From an uncultured Gammaproteobacteria bacterium (GTDB taxonomy: Bacteria; Pseudomonadota; Gammaproteobacteria; CAMYKB01), in NCBI GenBank assembly GCA_947258875.1, contig CAMYKB010000022.1, positions 92,061 through 131,721 of the forward strand: a stretch of DNA of 39,661 nucleotides, given 5' to 3'. A program made the translations under genes and the position numbers. The notes beneath the pieces are model-generated. The model ran no database searches, was not told the DNA's origin, and worked only from the letters and a program-made list of their open reading frames with translations. This document shows, one piece after another, positions 13,981 to 15,521 of the stretch; position 1 is the first letter of the stretch, and each line of letters opens with the position of its first letter.

Positions 13981-14040
13981 AAATGTGTCGCTTCGCGACG
14001 ATTATGTTATGTGGGTATTCGCGCCAGCCTACGCAACTGA

Positions 14041-14265
14041 GGGTATGCTACTTTTCTTTGCTTGTCTAAAGAAAAGTACCCAAAAGAAAAGACACCCGGC
14101 GACTTGTATTACGCTCAGCCACTAAGGCTCCCTGCGCTTCTCACGAAAATCGGCGCTCACCTAACTCGCGATCTCGCGTGCGTTCGATTGCGCTCAAGCA
14201 GGGGACTCGCTTCTCCCGGTTTTTGCTGCGATGCTCGGCTGCGTCGAACGGGATAAAAGTCAAAA
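14041..14265. repeat. Dispersed intergenic repeat (TACTTTTCTTTGCTTG type)
   Basis: Contains CTACTTTTCTTTGCTTGTC and its near complement AAAGAAAAGTACCCAAAAG as a hairpin. Stretches rich in 'cgctcac/cgctcaag' then run to about 14265. This resembles a repeat seen between genes in many gammaproteobacteria. A 64-codon frame over it is low complexity and probably not a gene. It precedes the integron-like cassettes. Confidence 0.5.
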
Positions 14266-14390
14266 TCAAAAATCGCTTGCAAACTACTCAGCGTTTTCCA
14301 TGTTTGGCCTTGAATATGATAATACGTGGAAATATAGTCCGTATATATATGTAATAAATACATGGAAACCGGGTTCCGCGTATCAACAAG

Positions 14391-14778
14391 TTATGTTCTT
14401 GAGAGATGAGGCATGCTGCAAATCTTCATTCGCTCGTTGGTTATCGCGTTTGTGATCACGCTCTGCTCTTTTCTTCTGATGGATTGGTTTATTACGGCTG
14501 GAGAAGATGAGCTTAGGGAATATTGCATTACGGAAGGTAAAAGCGACCCAGAGTGCTAACACTATTTTTTAGTGCCTAGTGAAGATGTGAGGGAGGTGAG
14601 AACCGAAATACAATTGGTGTTGCACCTAGCGCAACTGTCGCCGGTCTTCTTCTTGTCATTTATTAGCAGTGCAATATCCGGTGTTTGGAATCGATATAAC
14701 CCAATAAAAAGTGAAAAAACACAACCAGGCGCTCAACCAGGACGGCTTGTTTCGCTACGCCGCCAGTTAGCGTCGCCG
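14391..14778 (+). mobile_element. Integron-like gene cassette 1
   Basis: Starts at TTATGTT after G14390 in the context CAACAAG|TTATGTT. Ends within the attC at 14718-14785, whose inner core site AACACAAC is complementary to the cassette's own start (GTTATGTT) at seven of eight positions. That self-match is the hallmark of a cassette that was once circular. It carries a 48-codon membrane-protein gene right after the start. The left boundary is less certain than the right one. No integrase gene is seen nearby. Confidence 0.55.
14413..14559 (+). CDS. 48-residue membrane protein (cassette gene)
   Basis: A short gene beginning MLQIFIRSLVIAFVITLC. The first 25 or so residues form one membrane helix or uncleaved signal (LVIAFVITLCSFLLMDWF), followed by a short acidic tail with two cysteines (YCITEGKSDPEC). 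ATG 14413 is preceded by a GATGAGG ribosome-binding site. It starts about 22 bases after the proposed cassette boundary, as cassette genes usually do. No family is recognised. Many cassette genes of this size encode unknown small membrane proteins. Confidence 0.55.
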   Translation: MLQIFIRSLVIAFVITLCSFLLMDWFITAGEDELREYCITEGKSDPEC

Positions 14779-14785
14779 TTATGAG
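14718..14785 (+). repeat. attC-like recombination site 1
   Basis: About 68 bases. Outer core sites are AACACAAC (14718-14725) and GTTATGAG (14778-14785). Inner parts follow the usual attC style: GGCGCTCAACCAGGAC near the left and CAGTTAGCGTCGCC near the right, around a stem with GACGGC/GCCGCC arms. The right core marks the insertion point G|TTATGAG of cassette 2. Confidence 0.6.
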
Positions 14786-15278
14786 CAAATAAGAATGTCA
14801 GCATGAATTATGAAGAATTCAATGAATTTTGTCGCTGCCTACCGGCTACTTCATATGTCATGCAATGGGGAAACTCTCATGTATGGAAGGTGGGGGGAAA
14901 GGTATTTGCTATTGGGGGTTGGGAGAAGGATGGTCAACCAGCATTCACATTTAAAACTTCCGAACTCAATTTCCATGTTTTGAGTGACGAGCCCGGATTT
15001 CGGCCAGCACCTTACATGGCCTCTCGTGGAATGAAGTGGATACAGCAATATGATGTGCCTGGTTCGGAAGATGATGAGCTAATGTACTACCTAAAAGAAT
15101 CTCACCGTATTGTTTCTTTAGGCTTAACTAAGCAGAAGCAAAAAGAACTTGGTCTCAATCAGGATTAACTGTGGTTGTTGAACGAAGTATACAAGAACTC
15201 ATAACAAATCATTCAAGTTCGCCCGCAAAAAGCGCGGACAGGGACGTTCCATAAAGTGGCGCGCCCTTAATTCAAATA
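14779..15278 (+). mobile_element. Integron-like gene cassette 2 (MmcQ/YjbR gene)
   Basis: The cassette begins TTATGAGC directly after G14778. Near its end the attC inner core is CTCATAAC (15198-15205), the exact eight-base complement of GTTATGAG. One gene fills the cassette (14803-15168), starting 24 bases in and reading toward the attC, the usual cassette layout. The right end is degenerate (ATTGAGA instead of GTTRRRY), so this cassette may no longer be excisable. No intI is visible. Confidence 0.65.
14803..15168 (+). CDS. MmcQ/YjbR family protein
   Basis: A 121-residue protein with the MmcQ/YjbR fold: start MNYEEFNEFCRCLPATSYVMQWG, then HVWKVGGKVFAIGGW, FTFKTSELNF and PYMASRGMKWIQQ. These proteins have a CyaY-like or double-wing DNA-binding fold. 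The function is poorly known, and DNA binding is proposed for some. Here the gene is the sole cargo of the integron-like cassette bounded by matching core sites, an unusual setting for a family normally found as a chromosomal single gene. The ribosome-binding site is weak. Confidence 0.85.
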   Translation: MNYEEFNEFCRCLPATSYVMQWGNSHVWKVGGKVFAIGGWEKDGQPAFTFKTSELNFHVLSDEPGFRPAPYMASRGMKWIQQYDVPGSEDDELMYYLKESHRIVSLGLTKQKQKELGLNQD

Positions 15279-15284
15279 TTGAGA
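15198..15284 (+). repeat. attC-like recombination site 2 (degenerate right end)
   Basis: Left part CTCATAACAAATCATTCAAG and right part CCCTTAATTCAAAT match the usual attC arms. The centre is long (GCGCG...CGCGC around a 30-base loop). The right core should read GTTRRRY but is ATTGAGA (15278-15284), suggesting decay. Confidence 0.5.
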
Positions 15285-15354
15285 CTGTAGAAAAACCCAA
15301 TCAAACCGCCAAAACATTGATAAAATGACTCCACATCATCGCGAGTCGATCACA

Positions 15355-15461
15355 ATGCCTAAATTTATCCCCCACGATCCGAACCAAAGCAAGATGGTGG
15401 TGATCAATTACGCGGATCAATTGCAACCTGGTACCTTTGAGTTTGCGATCAACCATGCATT
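15355..15461 (+). pseudogene. Transposase N-terminal stub
   Basis: About 36 codons beginning MPKFIPHDPNQSKMVVINYA and continuing DQLQPGTFEFAINH. This is the N terminus of an IS transposase of the IS1182/IS5-like kind, as I recall the family. The full enzyme should run several hundred residues. The frame leaves the family sequence at NHALI, where the inverted-repeat element at 15462 begins; the rest of the transposase is absent. It is a dead remnant. Confidence 0.65.
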
Positions 15462-15521
15462 AATCGGAGTCAGAGAACAATTTCCGCTAGTATTAGAAAC
15501 AATTGCTCTCTGACTCCGATT
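15462..15521. repeat. 21-bp inverted repeat element ending the transposase stub
   Basis: Arms AATCGGAGTCAGAGAACAAT (15462-15481, plus one T) and the near-perfect complement at 15501-15521 (AATTGCTCTCTGACTCCGAT plus T), with one mismatch and an 18-base loop. It resembles REP/RAYT-type or MITE-like palindromes with GGAGTCAGAG cores seen in many gammaproteobacteria. It could also act as a hairpin terminator. Confidence 0.7.

Follow-up and report, generated by a model that had tools for sequence, protein, structure and literature searches.

How does a short run of gene cassettes come to stand where no integrase gene adjoins it? In the standard picture, an integron has one attI site beside its integrase, which limits expression to the first few cassettes, and arrays lacking an integrase are wrecks. 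The locus considered here lies in a 39.7-kb stretch of DNA, positions 92061-131721 of contig C22 of the genome G000 (the whole stretch analysed, hereafter the window). A preliminary description had read two integron-like cassettes here and suggested a stranded cluster. Our analysis points instead to a short cassette array that was started by a solo attI site, one copy of an intI-less unit of about 100 bp that spreads and seeds arrays; we give this reading a probability of roughly 0.8. The array and its interrupted end consist of the following features:

14391..14778 (+): gene cassette 1, from the T of G↓TT to the G of the next core; cores GTTATGTT / AACACAAC, 7/8
14413..14559 (+): 48-residue ORF of cassette 1 (from the ORF list), likely a single-pass membrane peptide
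14719..14784 (+): attC1, with R'' ACACAAC, L'' GCTCAAC, L' GTTAGC and R' GTTATGA
14779..15280, end approximate (+): gene cassette 2, 3' end interrupted; cores GTTATGAG / CTCATAAC, exact
14803..15168 (+): MmcQ/YjbR-family gene of cassette 2 (Pfam PF04237, YjbR, 3.7e-11)
15199..15280, end approximate (+): attC2, truncated or decayed, with R' core ATT instead of GTT
15281..15465 (+): IS1182-family remnant at the attC2 core, aligning with the 5' end of a complete insertion sequence (IS) on contig C38

The core coordinates reported earlier are all correct (GTTATGTT, 14390-14397; AACACAAC, 14718-14725; GTTATGAG, 14778-14785; CTCATAAC, 15198-15205). As had been described, the MmcQ/YjbR unit is bracketed by complementary cores matching at 8/8 positions, and the unit before it closes at 7/8. 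The proposed attC scan, run as a structural scan of all 39.7 kb, returned 14719-14784 (score 12) as the sole attC-like match, where about 0.017 matches per 10 kb are expected from first-order Markov shuffles. The L''/L' arms of attC1, GCTCAAC/GTTAGC, pair with one extra-helical base, GCT(C)AAC. The second site has R'' TCATAAC, L''/L' arms ATT(C)AAG / CTTAAT with an extra-helical base as in attC1, and a 6-nt spacer. We judge it truncated or decayed because its R' core reads ATT and an IS1182-type terminal repeat begins at 15281. The array holds one clear attC, with canonical parts, and one without a GTT core. Folded as DNA, the attC strands gave energies that do not stand out from those of shuffles, and Rfam matches in the window were limited to one tRNA. 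Cassette 1 had been predicted to encode a new 48-residue membrane protein; no match to its ORF was found in Pfam or NCBIfam, and the product is likely a membrane peptide.

The YjbR gene appears as a cassette elsewhere as well. Relatives of its protein, 55-80% identical, were found at 80 loci, mostly outside recognisable cassettes. At five of these, in five other bacteria (L053, L060, L061, L089 and L090), cores in exact complement flank the gene on both sides, the pair being either GTTATGA / TCATAAC or GTTATAA / TTATAAC; at L055 and L064 a like cassette start lies upstream, with no closing core recognised downstream. Judged by these brackets, the gene is a cassette in at least five bacteria besides the window's own. 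Together with attC1 and the paired cores, these loci support the reading of integron-like cassettes without a neighbouring intI.

The last attC core was probably the landing site of an IS1182-type element, which would have cut the array at a later stage. The window holds a 5' remnant of this element; the complete copy on C38 (32740-34501) encodes a transposase scoring 265.7 bits to NF033551 (cut-off 270), its best family by far, and interrupts an attC core as ...GCGTT↓IS↓GTTAGCC. A related MITE at C22:451-666 sits at CACCTAAC↓...↓AACAG, and a 42%-identical IS relative in Pseudoalteromonas piscicida (L249, NZ_CP074588.1) at CAACGGCGTT↓IS↓GTTATAT. GTT (or AAC) is duplicated wherever both element ends are intact. 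With insertion points exactly at the GTT/AAC of attC cores, these elements apparently make up a group that targets attC and is distinct from the known IS1111-attC elements: both insert in attC, but the element here is of IS1182 type (DDE) and duplicates the GTT core. We found no paper linking IS1182 to attC in the open-access literature. Directly after the remnant, at 15462-15521, lies a short near-perfect palindrome, AATCGGAGTCAGAGAACAATT...AATTGCTCTCTGACTCCGATT, which looks like a small mobile repeat.

We next turn to the DNA before cassette 1, where CAACAAG↓TTATG had been noted to resemble an attI end. That guess was correct: the 100 bp upstream belong to an attI family whose models R1 and R2 match them at 90.5 and 79.2 bits, respectively. 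The features of this region are:

14294..14393 (+): solo attI element (attI plus promoter region), crossover G↓TT at 14390/14391
14296..14303 (+): box 1, TTCCATGT, an inverted repeat pairing with box 2
14310..14338 (+): possible cassette promoter Pc, predicted from the sequence (TTGAAT, 17 nt, TATAGT) and pointing into the cassettes
14324..14331 (+): box 2, ACGTGGAA, pairing with box 1
14358..14367 (+): box 3, ATACATGGAA, pairing with box 4
14374..14383 (+): box 4, TTCCGCGTAT, pairing with box 3

The element's simple core ends AACAAG↓TTRRRY, and the window copy ends at this G↓TTRRRY insertion point with a cassette in place there. Its four boxes form two inverted pairs, and their letters differ between genomes (for example TTCTGCAT/AGGCAGAA in G200). 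Across 19 copies, box pairing is 79.4%, compared with 72.2% in shuffles (0/500 as high), and pairing drops to 38-52% when the boxes are slid, a control made somewhat favourable by box positions picked from the window's own sequence.

Positions 14294-14393 recur at three unlinked places in G000, giving four copies in total. The copy at C24:696-793 is 93% identical to that of the window; the copy at C1:74803-74903 is 82-86% identical (86% to the C24 copy); and the copy at C7:51534-51599 carries an internal deletion. The C1 copy finishes with ATTA and the other three with GTTR, and all diverge completely beyond the core. The C22 and C24 copies are alike, with 100-bp flanks at background identity. 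We found no intI remnants beside any of the four, and their flanks are unrelated. Two of them, the window copy and the one on C1, are preceded by a REP-like non-coding repeat (TTTCTTTGCTTGTC...AAAGAAAAGTACCC), which in the window lies at about 13990-14200; the two repeats are 78% identical over 114 bp.

The earlier statement that no intI is present holds for the window and for contig C22, searched for integrase_gron matches, but not for the genome: G000 has a complete intI on C41 (508.7 bits to NCBIfam TIGR02249), next to an attC-bearing array, as well as broken copies of intI on C38, C17, C11 and C53. With an adjacent functional intI absent from C22, the window array is no complete integron. 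Since the C41 integrase has an attI different from the four-copy element, no cognate integrase could be assigned to that element in G000; it may have been lost, there being no intI with a matching attI in this genome.

Model R1, built from the G000 copies and two from elsewhere, was searched over 369 genomes of the class. The family occurs in nine of them at E<1e-4, spanning eight taxonomic families, with strong copies besides those of G000 in G143, G326, G344 (7 match rows), G267 (4), G156, G217, G200 (3) and G130. Eight of the nine encode a complete IntI above the NCBIfam cut-off, G130 having fragments only. We attributed weak matches in G117, G281 and G282 (E about 0.004) to chance, about 3.7 such matches being expected at E<=0.01 over 369 genomes. 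The element was absent from IMG/VR, searched with an exact 20-mer pattern, and from plasmids and phages, searched with blastn.

In several of these bacteria and their relatives, the element adjoins a complete intI. Copies in G344 (contig C6) and G376 (at 2,462 kb) fill the space from a complete intI to cassette 1, with box 1 about 6-8 bp from the intI ATG; those in G372 (C8) and G382 (at 144 kb) occupy the same position, 10-15 bp from the intI start; and G217 has copies on C62 adjoining a complete intI. The element corresponds to the whole intI-to-cassette intergenic region, and in related bacteria with intact integrons it is, by its position, the attI. These observations bear on the idea that no true attI is involved and that the cassettes simply entered an ordinary secondary site of the genome (attG). 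Integration at attG is described (Loot et al. 2024, cited in PMC12444791 and PMC12901181), and attG sites are said to diverge from the classical att sites. In the window, the 100 bp ahead of the core instead belong to a conserved multi-box family that also serves as attI of intact integrons, which contradicts an attG origin and leaves it highly improbable.

The dispersal of the element is most evident in the genus of G344, where all 18 sampled genomes carry 1-9 copies, compared with 1/63 among other relatives. Two of the 18, G376 and G382, are single-contig chromosomes with copies scattered around them, so the absence of intI there is not due to contig breaks. Four of the five genomes examined (G344, G372, G376 and G382) have one intI-adjacent copy each; of the other copies examined in the five, none has an intI within about 4 kb by tblastn. 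Solo copies in G344, G372 and G376 share 90-91% identity with the intI-adjacent attI of their own genome, with 100-bp flanks at background. Their sites are mostly not common to different species of the genus: the copies on G372:C10 and at G376:1131k lie at one common locus, and those of G344:C1b and G382:1021k follow the same gene at differing distances. Overall, the element recurs as a discrete unit at unlinked loci, in G000 and in the genomes of other gammaproteobacteria. A possible hot spot lies at about 340-359 kb of G382:C1, where this region and its orthologues in G376, G372 and G377 hold solo copies, some at differing positions.

Cassettes are found behind many of the solo copies. Among 24 with a GTT core, 17 have an exact complement of the 7-nt core within 2.5 kb, compared with 21.8% of control GTTR positions (P about 4e-7). 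At G344:C6b, G344:C1b, G376:2062k, G376:2522k, G382:1179k and G382:347k, among others, this complement forms the R'' of an attC with a high score. Cassettes are found at the element's G↓TT point, closed by attC sites of their own. The G344 copies on C5 and C19 have no cassette behind them. The cassettes after the solo attI of G344:C6b include a RelB/RelE-like toxin-antitoxin pair (L243, +1776 to +2233). An ORF-less cassette, made up of a GTTAGAnCGGAA...TTCCnnTCTAAC palindrome and a long attC-like hairpin, stands behind attI elements in two genera (G000 C24:794-980, L015/L033; G344:C1 319359-319530; G344:C6 after 88238); at G344:C1a it lies reversed inside the attI element itself.

A second alternative derives the element from an intergenic repeat of unrelated, MITE-like or terminator-like nature that by chance ends in a core usable by IntI and was at one time recruited as an attI by some integrons. 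The element is indeed quasi-palindromic and often lies 20-100 bp past a gene's stop codon. This origin does not fit well with its standing beside complete intI genes in five genomes, in the position and orientation of an attI, or with the closing cassettes at 17/24 solo copies, and we consider it unlikely.

The remaining alternative is decay: the locus would once have been a complete integron, which lost its intI by deletion and kept the attI and two cassettes. Broken intI genes do occur in G000, and CALINs are held to be degraded integrons by the authors of IntegronFinder (PMC9024848). Such decay also fits G200, where three copies have 234-285 bp of left flank in common and one adjoins a broken intI, so that some members of the family are probably decayed integrons. 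In contrast, the four copies of G000 and most of those in G344, G372, G376 and G382 stop at one left edge, with unrelated flanks and no trace of intI, and a common left end point makes independent deletions unlikely. A few other pairs of copies have 48-150 bp of left flank in common, suggesting that the spreading unit may sometimes be longer. One site is moreover empty in a relative: metG and rsxA, named from their protein sequences, are close neighbours in G382, whereas in G344 a solo attI and about 2.8 kb of cassettes, among them a RelBE-like pair, lie between the two genes. For the window, decay thus seems a rather improbable origin, and the stranded cluster proposed earlier is not the best account of an array whose upstream 100 bp are one of four dispersed attI copies.

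We therefore prefer seeding of the array at a solo attI, against which we count the missing cognate integrase in G000, the G200 members and the pairs with common left flank, the two G344 copies with no cassette, and the closure of the window's cassette 1 at only 7/8. Given established IntI biology, an integrase encoded elsewhere in the genome would act in trans to insert cassettes at the solo attI, and the built-in promoter would drive expression of the first cassette. The ~100-bp unit itself would have spread by some form of copying, and a target duplication was not established for it. Taken further, the solo attI with its promoter may be a non-autonomous mobile unit standing to the integron much as a MITE does to a transposon, offering a resident IntI many platforms at once in trans and accounting for a share of CALINs, a proposal to which we give even odds. 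If the attI family is dispersed and multi-copy in this way, one IntI could load cassettes behind many chromosomal promoters, and the origin of CALINs would become directly testable.

We found no paper on solo, orphan, additional, dispersed or multiple attI sites in the open-access literature. Little has been described of attI sites outside class 1, and IntegronFinder does not detect them (PMC9024848), which could explain why solo copies have been missed so far. The nearest described phenomena are delta-attI cassettes and attG sites. The delta-attI-type cassettes likewise place attI sequence away from intI, but they are mostly 14-18-nt attI fragments replacing the cassette attC in class 1/2 arrays (PMC12901181), whereas the solo copies are full ~100-bp elements upstream of arrays. 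Insertion at attG likewise puts cassettes off the integron platform; in the account of Loot et al. 2024 cited in PMC12444791, attG sites are diverse genomic sequences, whereas the solo attI is a repeated element. The window array resembles a CALIN in having attC sites and no neighbouring intI, but CALINs are called on attC only and are described as degraded (PMC9024848), whereas this array begins at a conserved, dispersed attI copy. Finally, the same element stands as attI in chromosomal integrons, between intI and cassette 1 in G344, G376, G382 and G372 and beside intI in G217; the window-type element differs in standing alone, in several unlinked copies per genome.
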